In this document: piece by piece, positions 15,152-41,731 of the stretch
How the letters are laid out: each line of letters starts with the position of its first letter
How positions within the stretch are numbered: the first letter of the stretch is position 1
NCBI RefSeq assembly: GCF_003991905.1
Contig: NZ_RSCL01000006.1
Span: forward strand, 287,733 to 351,732
Reading direction: 5' to 3'
DNA: 64,000 nt
Source of the DNA: Dulcicalothrix desertica PCC 7102
Lineage (GTDB): Bacteria > Cyanobacteriota > Cyanobacteriia > Cyanobacteriales > Nostocaceae
Made by a program: the position numbers and the translations under genes
The notes under the pieces: generated by a model
Told to the model about the DNA's origin: nothing
Seen by the model: the letters and a program-made list of their open reading frames with translations, nothing else
Database searches by the model: none

Positions 15152-16429
15152 TTAACGCGCAGGTTCTTCCAAGGGAGTCGGCTCCTTCTTGTCCACGGGC
15201 ATATCTTCCGACTTAGCCAGTCGTACATATTCGTCTGGTGCGACCGATAAATTGTATGCGGCGTGCTTATCACGGTCTATTCGCTCGTGATGAAAAGCAC
15301 AATTTGGATTTATACACCAAAATTCACGGTCGCTTAAGGTTAATTCATTATTTTTCGTGTCACATAATGCACATTGTTTAGATGATGGGTACCATCGGTC
15401 AACAATTTCTAATTTACTACCATACCACTCACATTTATAAGTTAGCTGACGGCGAAATTCATAGAAACCTAAATCGCTGATACAGGATGATAGCTTGTGA
15501 TTAGCAATCATGCCAACAACATTTAAATCTTCAATTCTTAAATGCGCGTATACAAAAGCTAAATCAAAAGTTGTTTTATGTAGGAAACAGGAGCGTTGAT
15601 TAGCAATATGTCGATGTTGACGGGCTAATTTAGCATAAAAACGTTTGGCACGCTTTGAAGCCTTTACTCCCAAATTACGATTCCCTAATTGTTTATTACG
15701 GTTGTGATATTGCAGTTTGCCCAGCTTGGTTTTCGCTTGATTCATGGGCTTGGGAGCCGTAATTTCTACATCTTTGTAATCACCTGTTGAATTTACAACT
15801 GTTGCAAAAGTTTTAACACCTAAATCAATACCTGTTGCAGTTGCAACTAAATGTATTATTGGTGGTATTTTTTCCGCATCAATGTTAAAACTAACAAACC
15901 ATTTATCTGCAACTCTTGTGACAGTAAAGGTTTGAGAAGAACAGATAAAAGGTATTTTTTCTTTTAATCGATAAGTTCCAAGACCTGGTAAAGTAATTTT
16001 CTTACCTGGTTGTAAAACTTGACGATTACTAAAAGGCAAAGGTGGCTGACCTTTCTCTAGGTAAGTACCAGAAGTCCTATAAACTGTAAAGCTATCTCCT
16101 TTCTTCTTTTCTTTTCTTACTGGTATATTGGCTCTACCTTCTCGACAATTTGTTAAAGCTTTGCCTAAGTCTTGAAACACCGACTGATAGATGGTAGATG
16201 GGTAATCATTCATCCAACTATATTCAGGCAGAGTTTTCAAATAATTATTAAAAACTTTCTTAATTTCTTTGAGACGCTTTGCATCACTCGCACTAACACC
16301 TTCAAACTGCCAAGACGCTTTTAATAGTTCTAAAGCAAAATTCCAAACAAATCTTTTATAACCTGCACAACCACGCAAATAAGTTTGCTCTTTATTATTT
16401 AATTTTAGCTCGAACTTAAGTGCGTACAT
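15152..16429 (-). CDS. tnpB: TnpB, RNA-guided nuclease of IS200/IS605 type
   Basis: 425 residues, normal full length. An N-terminal OrfB/helix-turn-helix region (YALKFELKLNNKEQ..., GYKRFVWNFALELLK) precedes a RuvC-like nuclease with D202 (GIDLGVKTFA), E300 (RIEDLNVVG) and the IDRDKHAAYNL motif at 384-394. The usual NAA is HAA here. A zinc finger is present (C353, C356, C372, C377). All catalytic acids are intact, so it is probably active. No TnpA transposase gene is near, so the copy moves only in trans or is immobile. In this family TnpB cuts DNA guided by an RNA from the element's right end. Upstream sequence is AT-rich. Confidence 0.9.
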   Translation of the reverse strand: MYALKFELKLNNKEQTYLRGCAGYKRFVWNFALELLKASWQFEGVSASDAKRLKEIKKVFNNYLKTLPEYSWMNDYPSTIYQSVFQDLGKALTNCREGRANIPVRKEKKKGDSFTVYRTSGTYLEKGQPPLPFSNRQVLQPGKKITLPGLGTYRLKEKIPFICSSQTFTVTRVADKWFVSFNIDAEKIPPIIHLVATATGIDLGVKTFATVVNSTGDYKDVEITAPKPMNQAKTKLGKLQYHNRNKQLGNRNLGVKASKRAKRFYAKLARQHRHIANQRSCFLHKTTFDLAFVYAHLRIEDLNVVGMIANHKLSSCISDLGFYEFRRQLTYKCEWYGSKLEIVDRWYPSSKQCALCDTKNNELTLSDREFWCINPNCAFHHERIDRDKHAAYNLSVAPDEYVRLAKSEDMPVDKKEPTPLEEPAR

Positions 16430-30810: not shown

Positions 30811-33348
30811 TTATTCATCATCAGTTTCAACCACATCAATCAAATCAGACGATGCAGCAGAGTCCCCAAATTCTGCTGCATCTTCGTTATAGCCAATTAC
30901 TTGTCCATCAAAAAACTGTGCTAAACGTTCGGCAGCATACCAAACCTTCTCAACATCCACACTTGATACTGTGTTTGATTGTTGTATGGATAATGTTGAT
31001 GAAACTTCTTCGTCAGTCGGCGCCTCTTCAGTAAGTGCATCAACAGATAAATTAGATACATCAGATTTCTGTACAGGTGTTTCCTCTACAGGTTGCTGTA
31101 CCTGAGCATCTTGGGGAATATATTTTGGCGCCGTATTATTTAAATAATTTTGGGCGCCATTACCATTTTGTACAGAATTATCTTGTTCTTTATTTTGTTC
31201 TTTATTTAAGTACGATGTAGTATTTTGTAGATTATTTCCATTTTGAGTAGTTTTGTTACCATTACTCGATATAACAGAGTCAGGTTCTACATGTGTTGTC
31301 GGGGGAGGTTCCTCAGTCGTCGTATAAGCTACACCGTTTTCTTTAGTACGATTTGAACCTGAGTTAAGAACTTCTAGATTTACTGTAATTTCGCGATTAA
31401 AAGTAGCTTTAAAAGCTCGTCGAATAATCGGTAAGTCTTCTTGAACCCGTTTATGCCAAGCTTGTTTAACACCAAGTCGAGCTTCTTCAGAGCGAATTTC
31501 AATTACATTACACATTTGACGCAGCATTTCACGTCTTGATATAGGTTCAAGATTAGATAGTACTTTTTGCCAAGTTTGTGCTAGGTCGTCATTTGGATTG
31601 TTATTTATTGGTTGATTATTAGTAGGTGGCGCCTCTTTTGGAGCCGATTGAGACTGGGTTTGCGGTTGATTATTATTTACTGGTGGATTTATTGGTTGAT
31701 TTACTGGTGGATTTATTTGTGGATTTATTGGTTGTATGGGCGCCTTACCATTGGTCTGGGAGTTATTGTTATGTGGCTGCTGGGTAGGTATGGGCGCCGC
31801 TTGAACACTTATATTAGGACTATTAGGACTTGGCGCCGCAGTAGAAAGCGCAGATGGAAGTAAACCAAGAAGCGTAACTTCCAACCACAAACGCGGTTGA
31901 GTAGTATTTTTAAGTTGAACTTCAGCGTTTCGTAAATGCTGCTGTCCTGCCAAAATTCCATGAATATCAATGTTTTTTACCAATTCAACGAGAGCTTGCC
32001 AAGTTTCTTGAGTACAAGCAACCAAGTCACCACGGTTAGAAGCTGTTTTGGCAATCAGTAAATCTCGGTAAAAACCAGCCAGGTTTTGTAAAATAGTTAG
32101 CGGTTCGCGTCCTCTATCCAGAATTTGACGGGTAGTATCAATTAACTCTTCGGCATTATTAGCAGTGATAGCTTTAAATAACCAATACAAATCATGTTCG
32201 CTAACAGTACCTACCAAATCCCAAACATTATTTGGATTAACTTGCTCAGGCAATAAACTCAACTGGTCGAGTAAACTTTCCGCATCACGCAACCCACCCT
32301 GTGACAACTGTGCCACCAAAGTAATCGCTTCGGTTGTAATATTGATATTTTCTTTTATAGCTATATCAGTTAAATGAGATACCATCGCATCCAATGGTAT
32401 TCTACGAAAATCAAATCTTTGGCAACGCGAAATAATTGTAGGCAGTACTCTTTGCGGGTCAGTTGTAGCGAGTATAAAAACAATATGTTTAGGTGGTTCC
32501 TCTAGTGTTTTTAGTAGCGCATTAAACGCCTGGGTACTGAGCATGTGGCAGTTATGGACACTCAGTCCATTCGCAACAAAATTATGATTGTCTTCGACCT
32601 CAATATCATAGACACGCTCAATTCTACCTAATTTTACAAACTTAACTATCTCGAAACTTGTAGAAGGCGCCACAACCGCATTCACAGGGGATAGTATCTT
32701 GGTTCCTTCTTTGATATCTCTTGCTGGTATCCACCCTTGGTCAGTCCTAATTAAATGATTGCCTGTGCATCGAATTTCACGATTAGTTGTTTTGATAACC
32801 AAGGTTTGGCGTTCGCCTTGGTCGAACCAACGAACAACTCGTTTGTATTCCCAGTTTCCTGTGGAATCGTTATAACTTAGGACTTTCTTCCCTTTTATTT
32901 CAGGATTATCTATTCTGACTAATCCTTCGCTTGTTAATACGAGAGAATCTCCTGTTAGACATTCGTCGATGACATAAACCTTGTATCGACACTGGACTGG
33001 GGCAAACTGAGCTTTTTCGATGATGTCACGGACGTTTTCGACACCTGTGTTACTTGCTGCGTCTATTTCAATAACATCGACGGTATAACCTTTGGTAATT
33101 CCTAGGCAAACGTCGCACTTTTCACACGGTGTAGCTGTTGGGTGTGGGCCACTAAGGCAATTTAACGATTTGGCGAGAATACGCGCACTCGATGTTTTAC
33201 CAGTACCACGCGGGCCAGTAAATAAATACGCAGGCGCAATACGAGACGTGTTGATAGCATTAGTAAGAGTTGTTGCTATAGCAGATTGTCCCACCAGCTC
33301 TTTAAAGCTTTTTGGACGGTACTTGTGATGTAAGGGTTCGTAAGACAT
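30811..33348 (-). CDS. dnaX: DNA polymerase III subunit gamma/tau with in-frame mini-intein
   Basis: Clamp-loader ATPase of the replisome. I start it at ATG 33348 (MSYEPLHHKYRPKSF), the conserved family N-terminus, giving 845 residues; 15 upstream codons are spurious. Walker A is YLFTGPRGTGKTSSARI, four zinc-site cysteines lie in CLSGPHPTATPCEKCDVC, and Walker B VYVIDEC is split by a 137-residue intein before CHMLSTQAFN. SRC-type sensor motifs (ATTDPQRVLPTIISRCQRF) follow. The tau C-terminal part contains a Q/N/P-rich linker (PINPPVN repeats, about 530-640) and a DnaX domain V-like region, then an acidic tail. Function depends on intein removal by protein splicing. Confidence 0.95.
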   Translation of the reverse strand: MSYEPLHHKYRPKSFKELVGQSAIATTLTNAINTSRIAPAYLFTGPRGTGKTSSARILAKSLNCLSGPHPTATPCEKCDVCLGITKGYTVDVIEIDAASNTGVENVRDIIEKAQFAPVQCRYKVYVIDECLTGDSLVLTSEGLVRIDNPEIKGKKVLSYNDSTGNWEYKRVVRWFDQGERQTLVIKTTNREIRCTGNHLIRTDQGWIPARDIKEGTKILSPVNAVVAPSTSFEIVKFVKLGRIERVYDIEVEDNHNFVANGLSVHNCHMLSTQAFNALLKTLEEPPKHIVFILATTDPQRVLPTIISRCQRFDFRRIPLDAMVSHLTDIAIKENINITTEAITLVAQLSQGGLRDAESLLDQLSLLPEQVNPNNVWDLVGTVSEHDLYWLFKAITANNAEELIDTTRQILDRGREPLTILQNLAGFYRDLLIAKTASNRGDLVACTQETWQALVELVKNIDIHGILAGQQHLRNAEVQLKNTTQPRLWLEVTLLGLLPSALSTAAPSPNSPNISVQAAPIPTQQPHNNNSQTNGKAPIQPINPQINPPVNQPINPPVNNNQPQTQSQSAPKEAPPTNNQPINNNPNDDLAQTWQKVLSNLEPISRREMLRQMCNVIEIRSEEARLGVKQAWHKRVQEDLPIIRRAFKATFNREITVNLEVLNSGSNRTKENGVAYTTTEEPPPTTHVEPDSVISSNGNKTTQNGNNLQNTTSYLNKEQNKEQDNSVQNGNGAQNYLNNTAPKYIPQDAQVQQPVEETPVQKSDVSNLSVDALTEEAPTDEEVSSTLSIQQSNTVSSVDVEKVWYAAERLAQFFDGQVIGYNEDAAEFGDSAASSDLIDVVETDDE
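32551..32961 (-). mobile_element. DnaX mini-intein (137 residues, no homing endonuclease)
   Basis: Splicing motifs: block A starts with C1 (CLTGDSLVLTSEG), block B has TGNH (REIRCTGNHLIRTDQGWIPA), block F is RVYDIEVEDNHNFVANG, and block G ends LSVHN followed by Cys (+1) of the extein CHMLS. The stretch between blocks B and F is only about 40 residues, too short for a LAGLIDADG or HNH endonuclease. Insertion lies between Glu and Cys of the Walker B DEC motif, a highly conserved site of the type inteins favour. Synechocystis DnaX is known to carry an intein. Confidence 0.95.
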
Positions 33349-33617
33349 GGTATTGGTGATTTTTATGCCGAATGAGGCGTTGAAATTACACAAGTGCCCT
33401 AAGTGGGACTAGCTGAGAGTATATATTTTAAGCACTAGGGAATGCAAAATCTCACCCTGTGAACATTTTTCTACATTCATAAAATTTAAATATTATATAG
33501 ATTAGTTAAACTAATACAAATTTTTCCTGTAGATTTTATTTAATTGATACACCACTAAAGTGCGGCGCCATAGCTACAATCTTAGGGTACACACCAAGCA
33601 AATAAAGGTGCATGTAG

Positions 33618-34310
33618 ATGTTCAAAAGGCTTATTCAGTGGCTGAAAAAATTTTTCCAAGCTTTGTTCGGTGGTAACACGACAAAGCCCAAATCCAAAAT
33701 TGTCAGTTCGGTTGAGAAAAAACCCGCTCCTCCCCTCAGCGACACAGATTTGGAATTCTTGTTTACTGAGCTTTTGGAAGGAGTTAACCAAGCGCGCGGT
33801 CAAGCGTGGGCACTGAAATGGCTGCATAACATTGAACACCGTGTTTCTACTGAACGTTGGTTAGAATGGTTAAATAAGTTTGGTGATAAATTGCTGGCAT
33901 CAACGGCACCAAATAATGAATTAGCTGCAAGACTCGTTCAACTTGGCGAATTGGAAGTTGGCGAGGTTGGAGACACTGCTTATGATATAGGAATGGAACT
34001 GCTAACTCGCAATCAAACCGAACCAATTTGGGAATACAGTGGACCCGACAACGTGACGCAGTTAATACCCGATACCTCAGAACAGCATTCAACGCTTCAA
34101 CAGCCAGAAAACACACCCGAAGGAGAAGGTGAATTTCAAACTATTACTCTTGACCAACTCTACGAACTGATGCATCAGGATACTAACCTGCGCGCTTCTA
34201 TTGCTCAACAAGTTGGTATAGAAAGTGATGACCCAGACGTGATCATCCAAGCGTTAGTTGACCAATTCCAAGCTGAATCTCAAGCTAATCCTCAAGACTC
34301 ATCTATTTAG
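33618..34310 (+). CDS. Hypothetical protein sharing an N-terminal domain with the TPR-CHAT protein
   Basis: 230 residues. A basic amphipathic N-terminus (MFKRLIQWLKKFFQALFGG) is followed by a ~90-residue helical domain (LSDTDLEFLFTELLEGVNQARGQAWALKWLHNIEHRVSTERWLEWLNKFGDKLL...AARLVQLGELEVGEVGDTAYDIGMELL). The same domain opens the 1444-residue gene at 34583 with high identity, so the two are tandem paralogues. The C-terminal ~60 residues (TLDQLYELMHQDTNLRASIAQQVG) are a separate helical segment. No signal peptide; the amphipathic start could bind membranes. Function unknown; a partnership with the larger paralogue is likely. Confidence 0.75.
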   Translation: MFKRLIQWLKKFFQALFGGNTTKPKSKIVSSVEKKPAPPLSDTDLEFLFTELLEGVNQARGQAWALKWLHNIEHRVSTERWLEWLNKFGDKLLASTAPNNELAARLVQLGELEVGEVGDTAYDIGMELLTRNQTEPIWEYSGPDNVTQLIPDTSEQHSTLQQPENTPEGEGEFQTITLDQLYELMHQDTNLRASIAQQVGIESDDPDVIIQALVDQFQAESQANPQDSSI

Positions 34311-34582: not shown

Positions 34583-37500
34583 ATGCTCAGGCGGTTAGTA
34601 AAATTGCTTAGAAAGTTTTTCCAGCAACTGTTTGGTAAAAAGAAAGAGCGTTCGAGGGCATTGGTAACGCAACAGACTGTGGTGCAATCACCACCGATGT
34701 TAACTAATGCCGATTTAGAGTATTTGTTTACCCAGTTGCTAGAAGGTGTGAGTCAAGCACGTGGGCAAACTTGGGCAATCAAATACTTAGAACGAATGTC
34801 CAATCGTATAAGTACACAACGTTGGTTAGAGTGGTTGCAAATTTTTGGCGAGCGATTGCTTGCTTCTCCTGCACCAAATGAAGAGCTAGCGTTTCGACTG
34901 GTTCAATTAGGGGAGTTAGAAATTGGCACTGTCGGAGACTTTGCTCACGACATAGGAATGCGACTGCTAGCTCGTAATACAGGTGTTTCATGGCAAGATA
35001 TTCGTAACGACGAAGTTACTGAAGGAAGTATCGAGATAATCGTGCCTAATCCAAACTACGAATCTGCCATTTCCTTATCTGGTACAGACTCTCAAGATTT
35101 AGATTTCGATAATTCCTCAACTGCTGATTTTGAATTACCACCAGAAATATCTGGGCAAGATTTGCTCGATATATATAGTGAAGATTTACAAGAGTTTGAG
35201 CAGTCCACTTCTCAACCCGATTCAATTTACTATTCAGATTTAATAAGCAACACAGCGATAACATCAGTAACTGAAGATGTTGATAGTGTTTTTTGTGATA
35301 CACCCGGACAAAATTTACTGCGTCAGTTCGGTGAAGATTTGTGGGGAATACAAGAACAATATTCAACATCAGTAACAAATTATATAAACGAACCAAATAA
35401 TGATTTAATTTCTACAACAGAAAGTAATATTAATAATGTAGAAATAGTCGAAAATATCGAAAATATCGAAATTACAGATACACAGCAGCAAGAAGAACTA
35501 TTACGCCAGTACGGAGAGGAATTATGGGATTCAGAGCCGGCGGCGCTTCTTGAACCTGTAGTATACGAATCGAATTTAACAAATGAATTAGCCAACGAAA
35601 ATGTGGCGCCAACTCAAACCACAATAGAAGAAGAAATTACTCCGGCATTATTAGATACTCCAGGACAATATCTAATTACTGAGCTAGGAGACGATTTATG
35701 GGGTACAGATACAAAACTAGAAGTTGAAATTGAGGCGCCAACTGAAACAGTTGTTGAAGAAATTACCACAGGCGAACAGTGGGCGCGGATAATAGACGAA
35801 AATTATATAGAGTTTATTGCACCAGAGGCACCTACTGAAACAGTTGAAGAAGAAATCGATTTAGATTCTCCAGTAATTCCAGTTCAGCGTCCAAGCGTTT
35901 TACCAATACAGCAAGACTTTGACGATGCACTTACCGAGATGTCCCCAACCGTCGCGGTAACGCTTGACGAACTTTGGGTGCGGTTACAACAAAGTGCAAA
36001 TTTAGTTGAACAGTTAGCATCTGGGTTACTTTCTGAAACTAGTACCTCGCAAATTTTTGTTGATATCCCCAACCAAGCATCTAAGCTACTAGAAGCACAA
36101 GCATGGTTCTATCAGGCTTTAGCGCAAACTAAAGCCGGAAATTTATCAGCTGCTGTTTTTTCGTATGACCAAGCAATTGAAGCAGCACCTGATGCTTATG
36201 AATACTGGTTTAATCGAGGTTTAGCCCTGTTCCACTTGAAAAATTTGCAAGGAGCCATTGCCAGTTATGAAAATGCAATTGCCATTAAACCCGATTATTA
36301 CAAAGCTTGGTTTAATCGAGGCGCCAGTTTAGGTGAACTAGAAAGATACTCAGAAGCAATAGCGTCATTTGATAAAGCGATTGAAATTAAATCAGACTAT
36401 GGTGATGCGTGGGCAGGTAAAGGATTAGCATTACTAAAACTTTGGCAAATACCTGAAGCAATTAGCTGCTATGACCGTGCCACACAACTCGAACCAATGG
36501 ATGCCGAAAATTGGTATTATCGCGGAATTGCACTGTCGCAAAACAAACAATATGCTGAAGCGATTACCTCATTTGACGAAGCCGTGGAAATACAACCGCA
36601 ACACTCAGGCGCCTGGTATCAACGTGGGTTAGCGATGGCACAATTAGAGCAATGGGAAGAAGCGGTTATTTCATATCAAAAAGCCCTAAAATCGCAACCA
36701 GGCTCTTATGAACTTTGGTACCTGCGTGGAGTAGCACTCGATAAATGTAATCGACACGAAGATGCAGTTGAGTCTTATGATAATGCTCTTGCACTCAACC
36801 CAGAATTTTATGAAATTTGGATAGACCGAGGTGTACTTCAAGCAAGTTTAGGAGAATGGCATCAAGCAATAGCATCATGGGATAAAGCACTTGATATTAA
36901 CCCCAATGTATATTTGGCTTGGTTCAACAAAGCCATCGCTTGGGAGCAACTGGGAGACTCATATCAAGCGCTTATATGCTATGACCAAACGGTTGATAGA
37001 GAGCCAAATATATTTGCAGCTTGGTACAACCGAGGTTTACTACTAGCAGCTTCAGAAAAATATGAAGACGCAATTTTATCATTCGACTATGCAATTCAAC
37101 TACAAAGCGACAGCACCGAAGCATGGATAGCGCGTGCGAATACTGTAGAAAAATCTGCGGATTTCGATTATTACTTAAGTTCGCATAGTTCAATTGCAAA
37201 TGAAAATCCGGCATTAAACGCGCGTGGTTCGGAAGGAAAATTAGCGACTTATGCAGTAGCTGTTAACTACATAAATAAAGATACTCAACCCGAAGTTTGG
37301 TGTAAATTACATATAGCACTTGGTAATGCTTATTACGATAGAGGCAAGCGCTACACTTACATTTCCGACGATTGGTCACAAGCTATTTACGCTTATAATC
37401 AAGCATTATCGGCTGTTAATAGTACAGAGTTTCTATCATTGCATTTAGAAGTTTTACAAAACATTATTATAGTTCTACTAGGATTCGGTGATACTTTACA

Positions 37501-38917
37501 GGCACAACAATTTCAAACTTATGCAGCAACCTTATTATCAAATACCTTAAACGACTCACAGCGCGACAATAATAGCAAAAAAGATTTAGCATTAAAATTT
37601 GCTGGTATCGGACAACTAGCAGTAGATATTTCCGTACAATCAGGTGAACTGCTCCAAGCTTTAGAACTAGCCGAATTTGGTAAAAATGCTTGTTTAAATT
37701 GGCAACAATTTGGTTTCGTTGACAACTTCTATTCTCCGAGCTACAAATCAATACAAAATTTAGTCAATTCCACAACAGCTATTATATATTGGCACATCAG
37801 TCCTTCTGGCTTACGAAGCTTTATCGTCAAAACAAACCATCCAGAACCAATACTTGTCTTTACACCAATGTTGAACATTGGTGAAATGAACGAAATACCA
37901 GTACCCGAAGTAATTGCAAATTTAACAGCATTTGAAGACTGGGCAACTGAATGGAACCAGCATGTAGAAGAATCTTGGGTGCCTTTCATGGAAGCGCGAC
38001 TGCTCAAACTTCGTGAAATTTTAAGTATTGGCGCCATCGAACAAGAACTCGAAGGCATTACAAAGTTAATATTAATACCTCATCGCGATTTATTTAAATA
38101 TCCACTTCATGCCCTATTCTTACTAACCAGTATAAAAACAATCACCTATTTTCCGACTGCCGAACTAGCATTAGCACTGAAAAATCAAACATCGCAACCT
38201 ATTGATACACAATCATTACTAAGTATAGAGGCGCCAACCACTAAAAATTATCCATTACTAGAATCAGTAAAAATACAAACAGAAGGTATTACAAATCTAT
38301 TTAATCAAGTCAAACGAATTCAGGCAGCAAAAGCAACAAAGCAAGAAGTACTCAACGCACTGAGTAACCATAGCATCCTTCATTTTGCAGGTTACGCAAA
38401 CGACAACCCAAACAACTCCAAACAATCACAACTATTACTAGCAGAAGAAGAAAAGCTTTCGTTAGAACAAATTAATGCGCGAATTCTCAATAACTATTCA
38501 TTAATAACCCTTTCAGGTCAAACAACAATCACCACAGACCAAACAATAACCACAGAATATGTAGGTATAGTCAGCGAACTCATGAAAGCAGGTGTTAACC
38601 ATGTATTAATAACACAATGGATGGTTGATAATATTGCCAATGCACTAGTAATGATCGAATTTTATCGAAGACTCAAACAAGGAAAAGCTGCCCCTACTGC
38701 CCTAAACGAAGCAACCGCATGGTTAAAAGAACTAACCGCAGGTGAATTAAAGAAATGGTACGAAGATAACTTACGAAAATCGCCCCTTGGAGGAACTAAA
38801 ATACAGGCGCCAGTCGCAGAACAACTCCAAAAACTCAGCACCATCCCAACCAACCAAAAACTCTACAACCATCCCTACTACTGGGCAGCCTTTAAAATTC
38901 ATGGCAACCTAGACTAA
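34583..38917 (+). CDS. TPR protein with a degenerate C-terminal CHAT domain
   Basis: 1444 residues. Residues 1-140 repeat the N-terminal domain of the upstream gene (MLRRLVKLLRKFFQQLFGKK..., LTNADLEYLFTQLLEGVSQARGQTW). Residues ~190-375 are an acidic linker with four copies of a motif like LLRQFGEDLWG. About ten TPRs fill 506-856 (for example AWFNRGASLGELERYSEAIASFDKAIEIK). Residues ~1050-1444 are CHAT-like (HFAGYANDNP, LITLSGQTT, VNHVLITQWMVDNIANALVMIEFYRRL). The catalytic His is Tyr (Y1271) and the catalytic Cys is Gln (Q1313), so protease activity is unlikely. It is followed 22 bp later by a P450 gene. Confidence 0.88.
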   Translation: MLRRLVKLLRKFFQQLFGKKKERSRALVTQQTVVQSPPMLTNADLEYLFTQLLEGVSQARGQTWAIKYLERMSNRISTQRWLEWLQIFGERLLASPAPNEELAFRLVQLGELEIGTVGDFAHDIGMRLLARNTGVSWQDIRNDEVTEGSIEIIVPNPNYESAISLSGTDSQDLDFDNSSTADFELPPEISGQDLLDIYSEDLQEFEQSTSQPDSIYYSDLISNTAITSVTEDVDSVFCDTPGQNLLRQFGEDLWGIQEQYSTSVTNYINEPNNDLISTTESNINNVEIVENIENIEITDTQQQEELLRQYGEELWDSEPAALLEPVVYESNLTNELANENVAPTQTTIEEEITPALLDTPGQYLITELGDDLWGTDTKLEVEIEAPTETVVEEITTGEQWARIIDENYIEFIAPEAPTETVEEEIDLDSPVIPVQRPSVLPIQQDFDDALTEMSPTVAVTLDELWVRLQQSANLVEQLASGLLSETSTSQIFVDIPNQASKLLEAQAWFYQALAQTKAGNLSAAVFSYDQAIEAAPDAYEYWFNRGLALFHLKNLQGAIASYENAIAIKPDYYKAWFNRGASLGELERYSEAIASFDKAIEIKSDYGDAWAGKGLALLKLWQIPEAISCYDRATQLEPMDAENWYYRGIALSQNKQYAEAITSFDEAVEIQPQHSGAWYQRGLAMAQLEQWEEAVISYQKALKSQPGSYELWYLRGVALDKCNRHEDAVESYDNALALNPEFYEIWIDRGVLQASLGEWHQAIASWDKALDINPNVYLAWFNKAIAWEQLGDSYQALICYDQTVDREPNIFAAWYNRGLLLAASEKYEDAILSFDYAIQLQSDSTEAWIARANTVEKSADFDYYLSSHSSIANENPALNARGSEGKLATYAVAVNYINKDTQPEVWCKLHIALGNAYYDRGKRYTYISDDWSQAIYAYNQALSAVNSTEFLSLHLEVLQNIIIVLLGFGDTLQAQQFQTYAATLLSNTLNDSQRDNNSKKDLALKFAGIGQLAVDISVQSGELLQALELAEFGKNACLNWQQFGFVDNFYSPSYKSIQNLVNSTTAIIYWHISPSGLRSFIVKTNHPEPILVFTPMLNIGEMNEIPVPEVIANLTAFEDWATEWNQHVEESWVPFMEARLLKLREILSIGAIEQELEGITKLILIPHRDLFKYPLHALFLLTSIKTITYFPTAELALALKNQTSQPIDTQSLLSIEAPTTKNYPLLESVKIQTEGITNLFNQVKRIQAAKATKQEVLNALSNHSILHFAGYANDNPNNSKQSQLLLAEEEKLSLEQINARILNNYSLITLSGQTTITTDQTITTEYVGIVSELMKAGVNHVLITQWMVDNIANALVMIEFYRRLKQGKAAPTALNEATAWLKELTAGELKKWYEDNLRKSPLGGTKIQAPVAEQLQKLSTIPTNQKLYNHPYYWAAFKIHGNLD

Positions 38918-40276: not shown

Positions 40277-41239
40277 TTGCTTTCACAATCTATAGTGATT
40301 GGTACTCCTGGTTTTATGCCAAGTGAACAAACTACTGGAAGACCTGTATTTTCAAGCGATTTATATAGTTTAGGGCTAACAGCAATTTATTTACTCACAG
40401 GTAAGTACCCCCAAGAACTTGCCACTAATCCTAGTACAGGAGAAATTTTGTGGCGCCAATATGCTTTGAATATCACACCCAGCTTTGCAGCAATTTTAGA
40501 TAAAGCCATTCAACCTTACGCACCAAATCGTTATAAAAATGCTTCTCTTATGCTCCGTTCCCTGCAAAATCTTGTCGCTCCTAAAATCCAACCAAACCCC
40601 ACACTAATTTCTGCTGCACCTACAGGCGCCTATGTTCAACCGCAACAAACACCAACAGTTGTAGTAGCACCAAGTCAAGCGATACCTTACCAGCAACCAG
40701 CAAATGCCCAAGGTATGAATGATTGGCAAAAAGCGTTAGTCATGGGTGGAGTTATCGGTGTATGTGTTCTTGGTGGTTTACTAATTATCGATAGAAAAGA
40801 TAATACTCAACCGCAAACGACTGTGGTTCAACAAAGTACTTCTGTGGCGTCTACAACTAGTTTACCTACTCAAGAGCGACGATTATCTCAACCTCTTGTT
40901 TCCAGAACTTCAGCAGGACAAGCGTTAAGAAATTATTACGAAACAATCAATAGGTCTGAATACCAATCTGCTTGGAGCCAACTTTCTCCCCAACACCGAA
41001 ATAATCCTGATTTGCATCCAGCAGGTTTTAATTCGTTCACCGAATAATGGCAACAGGTTACACGAATAAACATTCAGGAAATAGTGAATCCAGCAACAAG
41101 TAACGATACAGCAATCGTAGAAGCACGAGTCAAATACACCATGACATCAGGAAGACAAATTTCGCAATCATTACGCTATTTTTTTGTATGGGATGCAGTT
41201 TCAGAAAGACGGTTAATTGAAAAAGTTCAAAAGATTTAA
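40277..41239 (+). pseudogene. Ser/Thr protein kinase remnant (C-terminal part, with an in-frame stop)
   Basis: The frame begins inside a kinase domain at IVIGTPGFMPSEQTTGRPVFSSDLYSLGLTAIYLLTGKYP (activation-segment end and helix F) and lacks the N-lobe, catalytic loop and DFG. A TM segment (KALVMGGVIGVCVLGGLLIID, residues about 150-170) and a Pro/Gln linker follow. A TAA at 41045-41047 interrupts an extracellular-type domain: the same frame continues SFTE-stop-WQQVTRINIQ... to YFFVWDAVSERRLIEKVQKI and ends at 41239. It is therefore truncated at the 5' end and also carries a nonsense mutation. The upstream P450 ends 23 bp before it. Confidence 0.8.
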
Positions 41240-41452: not shown

Positions 41453-41731
41453 ATGATGACACCAATCCTGTTGAACTATCGCTACCAGGTGATTAGAGTA
41501 CTTGGTTCTGGTGGCTTTGGCGAAACATTTTTAGAAGAAGATACGCAAATGCCAACTAAGCGCAGGTGCGTAATTAAACAACTTAAACCTGTCGCTGATA
41601 ATCCAGAAATTTATCAATTATTCCAAGAACGGTTTCAGCGCGAAGCTGCTATTCTCGAAGAACTCGGTGATGGTAAGACTAATAAAACTTTGGCAATAAT
41701 CTTTATGGTTATTGGGCTTTATAGGGGATAA
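41453..41731 (+). pseudogene. Ser/Thr protein kinase remnant (N-lobe only)
   Basis: 92 residues: LLNYRYQVIRVLGSGGFGETFLEEDTQ is the kinase glycine-rich loop, RRCVIKQLKPV has the ATP-binding Lys, and FQREAAILEELGDG is helix C with its Glu. The sequence then departs into an unrelated tail (KTNKTLAIIFMVIGLYRG) and stops. The rest of the kinase is missing. It lies downstream of a kinase C-terminal remnant, in the wrong order to be one gene, so it is either a second decayed kinase or the product of a rearrangement. Confidence 0.75.

Follow-up and report, generated by a model that had tools for sequence, protein, structure and literature searches.

The window, the whole 64,000-nucleotide stretch of DNA analyzed here, encodes a TPR-CHAT protein in which both catalytic residues of the CHAT protease domain are gone. 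The reading that we favor, with a probability of roughly 60%, is that this protein acts as a scaffold that is probably tethered to the membrane, and that its CHAT protease has been disarmed repeatedly and is now a non-catalytic module.

Gene layout, predicted fold and the catalytic site

The gene is a single intact ORF, with the following domains and codons.

34583..38917, + strand: gene of the putative TPR-CHAT pseudo-protease, 1444 aa (ORF and Pfam)
34583..34987, + strand: N-terminal domain (N-domain), residues 1-135, with a basic amphipathic helix (about residues 3-16), a flexible stretch and a helical bundle (AlphaFold)
36095..37132, + strand: TPR array, about residues 505-850 (Pfam TPR_1, 10 stretches, E 2.7e-65)
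37133..38032, + strand: residues 851-1150, the helical region after the TPRs and the first caspase-like strands (AlphaFold model)
38033..38905, + strand: CHAT domain, residues 1151-1441, catalytic dyad gone (PF12770 and Csx29 fold match)
38393..38395, + strand: codon TAC, Tyr1271, catalytic His site (alignment, codon)
38516..38518, + strand: codon GGT, Gly1312, most likely the catalytic Cys site, the Ala codon before it lost (codons of loci L095, L096 and L097)
38519..38521, + strand: codon CAA, Gln1313, most likely the Glu of S-A-C-E-T and not the Cys (codon comparison)

The PF12770 match, the sole CHAT match in the protein, reaches 108.8 bits against a curated cut-off of 24. The AlphaFold model of residues 855-1444 (mean pLDDT 85.4, pTM 0.86) has the caspase/separase-like fold of a CHAT domain, with Csx29 as its best fold match (8eex_B, Z 30.9, rmsd 2.9 over 344 residues), followed by yeast separase (5u1s_A, Z 28.2), DdvA (Z 22.6) and gingipain (Z 17.9). 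Csx29 and separase were the comparisons proposed in the original prediction, which held that the fold-defining parts remain; both bear this out, and the TPR-CHAT protease fold is predicted to be intact around the missing dyad. Residues 851-1150 form the start of the model range matched by the Csx29 and separase chains in the fold search. The model also matches chains of the ciliary central pair (7n6g_1N, Z 20.4; 9ijj_B, Z 18.8), which hints that TPR-CHAT-like scaffolds may occur in eukaryotes.

The original prediction was that the catalytic His and Cys had been replaced by Tyr1271 and Gln1313, in motifs reading HFAGYA and LSGQTT. Both motifs are present, as are both segments quoted as fold-defining, and the numbering is right. 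The replacement of the His holds, as Tyr1271 sits on the His column in the alignment with the outgroups. The Cys is likewise absent, but Gln1313 as its former site was rejected on codon comparison within the genus. There, the codons read TCG GCT GGT GAA where the motif is LSAGET and TCA GGT GAA where it is LSGET, set beside TCA GGT CAA for the LSGQT of the window; on the simplest and most likely path, Cys would have become Gly (G1312), the Ala codon in front of it would have dropped out, and Glu would have become Gln1313. MAFFT shifts a one-residue gap between runs, sometimes onto the Cys column, and because gap placement varies in this way the Gly1312 assignment rests on the GGT codon in common. 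The window CHAT has no Cys in the 283 residues counted, from LILIPH to the end; a displaced Cys nucleophile is therefore excluded in the counted part. Three of the six other genus members also lack a CHAT Cys, and three have one.

When a profile of 20 orthologues was searched against the PDB, the His and Cys columns faced two residues of the TPR-CHAT chain 8d9g_A that are likewise a His and a Cys. By hand count along the alignment, with a numbering offset of 37 residues, these are H585 and C627, which the excerpted text of PMC9729208 gives as the His-Cys dyad of TPR-CHAT. Where an active CHAT would carry its catalytic His and Cys, the window protein has Tyr1271 and Gly1312.

The host, a cyanobacterium with an 11.4-Mb genome, has 70 CHAT matches, of which the own-genome census resolves the 30 strongest; the weaker 40 lie mostly outside the coverage of the profile (39 regions, of which 5 have His and Cys, 3 are partial and 31 are beyond coverage). 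Both residues are kept in 28 of the 30 strongest, the exceptions being the TPR-CHAT gene and L006 (G000:C28:110921-111745, - strand). The latter is a second dyad-less CHAT, reading HLATSSC and LNSYDT, about 4 kb from the intact L008. A search for an active CHAT paralogue had been suggested, and the genome does hold candidates for this role, namely paralogues whose dyad is intact; L029 (HFTGH/LSACET) is the closest in sequence among the 30.

Loss of the dyad among orthologues

With the last 540 aa as query, orthologues were found in 208 of 217 family genomes (E <= 1e-60); in an order sample drawn evenly and including family members, 160 of 388 genomes match at E <= 1e-45. Among named relatives, Calothrix comes closest: in PCC 7103 and PCC 7716, for example, the C-terminal 540 aa are 96% identical; judging from the names of relatives, the family appears to be one of heterocyst-forming cyanobacteria. 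We aligned 119 family orthologues from 119 different genomes with 29 outgroup and paralogue sequences, reassigning L254 from the orthologue to the outgroup set after tree inspection. Twelve of the 119 lack the catalytic half and all end at about the same point: genus g28 contributes 10 of them, from its 12 matching genomes, and g25 and g59 one each, from their single sampled genomes; all three genera were chosen partly for their weaker matches. No remnant of the deleted half was found near the 12 truncated loci (best tblastn E 0.37).

Among the remaining 107 orthologues, both residues are kept in 34, whereas the His is lost in 69, the Cys in 36 and both in 32, with loss of the His alone in 37 rows and of the Cys alone in four; the 119 rows were hand-picked out of 208 from listed matches, and these proportions are not those of a random sample. 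The dyad is intact in 27 of the 29 outgroup and paralogue rows and in 32 among 80 named loci. Both residues are missing in all seven genomes of the window's genus and in the two sampled genomes of the neighboring genus g20. At the His site the replacements across lineages are Y, Q, R, S, N, D, E or V, with Tyr in 40 of the 69 His-less rows, and the common trait is therefore loss and no particular replacement; at the Cys site they are Gly, Ser, Ile, Trp, Asn, Ala, Gln or His. The proposal that Y and Q might be conserved among orthologues thus survives in part: loss is kept genus-wide, but with 34 of 107 copies retaining His and Cys the two letters are no fixed signature.

Four of the 107 rows (L246, L248, L249 and L250) keep the His and have Ser for Cys, a combination that might allow residual activity. 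Two related TPR-CHAT proteins, L257 and L264, have Tyr and Lys in place of the His and keep the Cys; since both lie outside the family, His loss is not confined to it.

Trees were built with the catalytic columns masked. By parsimony, the minimum number of changes among orthologues is 18 for the His and 8 for the Cys with IQ-TREE (quick) and 17 and 9 with FastTree; when branches with less than 95% support are collapsed, there are still 12 changes for the His and 6-7 for the Cys, and across all 148 rows the numbers are 21 and 8. Loss is the likely direction because the outgroups keep the dyad. Cys loss falls mostly within His-less rows (32 of 36), and therefore the His usually went first. Near relatives within genus g7 differ at the His site, with H, R, N or Y. 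The outgroups conserve 105 columns at 90% or more. Among these, retention in the orthologues is lowest for the His column (0.36, against a median of 0.95) and 11th lowest for the Cys column (0.66), whereas all 107 orthologues keep W1346, W1380, W1434 and P1431 along with many other fold residues; the His site is thus relaxed more than the fold.

The ten genus pairs compared for selection all postdate the loss of both residues. In these pairs, dN/dS is 0.13-0.29 for CHAT, 0.06-0.16 for the TPRs, 0.00-0.11 for the N-domain, 0.08-0.31 for residues 851-1150 and 0.23-0.47 for the linker (residues 148-500); CHAT exceeds the TPRs in 10 of 10 pairs and residues 851-1150 in nine of 10. The seven genus copies contain no stop within matches. 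For the catalytic half, eight of nine other dyad-less pairs (g20 included) give 0.15-0.34, and one dead pair with very few changes gives 0.67. Pairs of g7 with intact His and Cys have whole-CHAT values of 0.07-0.15, about half those of the dead genus, which points to some relaxation, although other intact pairs reach 0.42 in the catalytic half and the intact and dead ranges overlap. The dead CHAT, then, remains under constraint, though perhaps a weaker one than that on an intact CHAT. These data agree with the earlier claim of a conserved pseudo-protease on a TPR scaffold, in that dyad loss is common to the whole genus and the two g20 genomes and the domain is under purifying selection. A lone decayed gene, the alternative named with that claim, is ruled out by the seven of seven genus members and the low dN/dS.

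The N-terminal domain and its gene neighborhood

The N-domain recurs in a small gene immediately upstream.

33618..34310, + strand: small gene of 230 aa that carries the N-domain (52% identity) and ends in a short acidic tail
30811..33393, - strand: dnaX with an intein-like insert (PF14890), divergent neighbor of the pair (Pfam)

The N-domain has no Pfam match, and its AlphaFold model (mean pLDDT 80.7, but only 54 for residues 1-10 and 48 for residues 11-20) gave no confident match in fold searches (Foldseek E 1.1 at best; VIA Z 5.8 at best), which is not proof of a new fold. Residues 2-18 have a net charge of +5 and a hydrophobic moment of 0.50, a moment reached by 0.5% of 2000 shuffles. The N-terminal helix, predicted at low confidence, probably tethers the protein to the membrane.

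The small partner protein has no Pfam or NCBIfam match. Its gene lies on the same strand, at most 2 kb upstream, in 77 of the 86 orthologue loci with at least 1.5 kb of upstream sequence, and dnaX is divergent in 65 of the 76 loci with at least 2.5 kb. In the clade that lacks the catalytic half, the partner is upstream in 11 of 12 loci and dnaX is present in 11 of 12. The host genome has two copies of the N-domain, one besides that of the TPR-CHAT gene, and 38 of the 291 genomes sampled from the class contain the domain. Its presence in 20 of 29 main ORFs of the outgroup and paralogue set shows that it is no mark of dead copies and that the three parts, N-domain, TPR and CHAT, came together before the losses. 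Thirteen N-domain ORFs were fetched from outside the family, of which 10 are complete short proteins, all from cyanobacteria (L373-L380, L382 and L384); TPRs are present and CHAT matches absent in every one of them. G019, a family member whose genome is small, has a single 214-aa N-domain ORF and no TPR-CHAT match. Taken with the CHAT-less proteins, this means that N-domain proteins can stand without CHAT.

The original prediction had placed TPR-CHAT proteins in defense and cell-death circuits, and such a role finds no support here: PADLOC gave no match for the TPR-CHAT protein or its small partner, and the gene is near-universal in the family and usually adjacent to dnaX. Presence in 208 of 217 family genomes beside dnaX therefore looks like that of a core gene, and not like a defense island. 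For the sensor or decoy function put forward in the same prediction, the analysis yielded evidence neither for nor against.

Downstream, a close P450 directly follows in four of six other genus members, and elsewhere only distant matches were found (24-36% identity). Beyond the P450 lie an ORF at 40277-41047 with a weak partial Pkinase match (E 0.022) and a short ORF at 41453-41731 with no Pfam match; the two are possibly pieces of broken genes. Farther away in the window, an IS605-type OrfB/TnpB-like gene with a Cas12f1-like TNB domain occupies 15152-16429 on the - strand.

Interpretation and comparison with known systems

In the favored reading, the N-domain and the TPR array would do the conserved work of the protein. 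The CHAT would descend from a His/Cys protease, given that 34 of 107 orthologues and 27 of the 29 sequences in the outgroup and paralogue set still have the dyad. We propose that the dyad was lost repeatedly, usually the His first, because proteolysis stopped being required in many lineages; as 34 of 107 copies keep both residues, some lineages may still need it. In the window's genus both residues are gone, and selection would keep the fold as a module without catalysis, most likely one whose surface binds peptides or partners where the TPR scaffold ends; we infer both this binding role and the direction of change. In another clade the catalytic half has been deleted and the remainder kept. 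Sequence-based pseudoenzyme calls have been wrong before, as the excerpted text of PMC12037411 describes for USP53/USP54.

It is also conceivable, though unlikely, that CHAT in the dead lineages is functionless and drifting, and that the fold persists only through too little time. Such plain decay would fit the many separate losses with their varied replacements, the dyad surviving in only 34 of 107 copies, the absence of the whole catalytic half from 12 sampled genomes, and a CHAT dN/dS that is above that of the TPRs in all ten genus pairs and about twice that of the intact g7 pairs. However, the post-loss CHAT values of 0.13-0.29 are far below 1, the four residues W1346, W1380, W1434 and P1431 are universal among the 107 copies, and the matches in the seven genus copies are free of stops.

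Slightly less likely still is a harmful ancestral protease that remains in use where intact and has elsewhere been selected off by one-step changes at the His site, the scaffold being kept. The order of loss is what this would lead one to expect (32 of 36 Cys-less rows also His-less, with 37 His-only losses), as are the variation at the His site among near relatives in g7 (H, R, N, Y) and a His column more relaxed than every other conserved column. Yet relaxed constraint alone yields the same pattern, PADLOC gave no match, and the conserved neighbor is not a defense gene. Highly improbable, finally, is a changed mechanism or site, with a Thr or Ser nucleophile or some other activity. The Ser and Thr of LSGQTT do lie beside the old site and the domain is under selection, but the window CHAT has no Cys and the residue at the Cys site varies by lineage; no replacement nucleophile is therefore conserved, and with no conserved residue at the site such a nucleophile was set aside as unlikely.

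CHAT domains, TPR-CHAT proteins and pseudo-proteases with a caspase fold are already known. Among the papers listed in our literature searches, none described a CHAT family in which dyad loss is repeated inside one orthologous gene. At somewhat less than even odds, we tentatively suggest that this near-universal and usually dnaX-linked gene, in the family of Nostoc, Calothrix and Scytonema, presents every stage from intact through His-less and dyad-less to copies without the catalytic half, the series having begun separately about a dozen times or more, as a natural experiment in the passage from signalling protease to binding protein, and that the N-domain pair represents a new cyanobacterial membrane-scaffold module. 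Loss repeated in near relatives, with a constrained fold, provides matched intact and dead orthologues of one gene, which make a non-cutting role of a caspase-like domain directly testable. The small N-domain gene and the TPR-CHAT gene beside dnaX form a further uncharacterized conserved unit. The CHAT profile and fold suggest a protease, yet only 34 of 107 sampled copies keep the residues, so fold-based annotation misleads.

The best structural match, the Csx29/TPR-CHAT protein of type III-E CRISPR (Craspase), which associates with Cas7-11/gRAMP, has TPR, linker and CHAT in the same order, and no PDB chains other than Csx29/TPR-CHAT gave a sequence match below E 0.01 (best 1.3e-6). Unlike the window protein, Csx29 has the His-Cys dyad, according to the excerpted text of PMC9729208; the window gene also differs in its conserved neighbors, the N-domain gene and dnaX, and in its extra N-terminal helical domain. 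Separase similarly joins a helical part to a caspase-like protease fold (Z 28.2), but is a eukaryotic protease with 13% identity over the aligned part. The transmembrane anti-sigma factor DdvA (8rot, 8rw5) matches the model at Z 22.6 and gave no sequence match in the profile-PDB search. HetF of heterocyst-forming cyanobacteria comes from the same bacterial group and also combines CHAT with TPRs. The excerpted text of PMC8406250 places its CHAT in aa 1-555, with TM and TPR domains, and reports that mutation of the conserved active site abolishes function; in the window protein, by contrast, CHAT is C-terminal and the site is lost, and the layout is not that of HetF.

The nearest parallel is provided by the cyanobacterial pseudo-orthocaspases, which, in the excerpted text of PMC6426788, have a caspase fold without the His-Cys dyad, most often with Tyr-Ser, and a p20 domain with no other domains identified. 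The change of His to Tyr is shared, Tyr being the residue in 40 of the 69 His-less rows here. The window protein is not itself a pseudo-orthocaspase, as p20 (Peptidase_C14) is absent from the 24 Pfam families matched at E <= 0.1. Its CHAT sits on a TPR scaffold and, unlike in the pseudo-orthocaspases, the loss is repeated within one orthologous gene.
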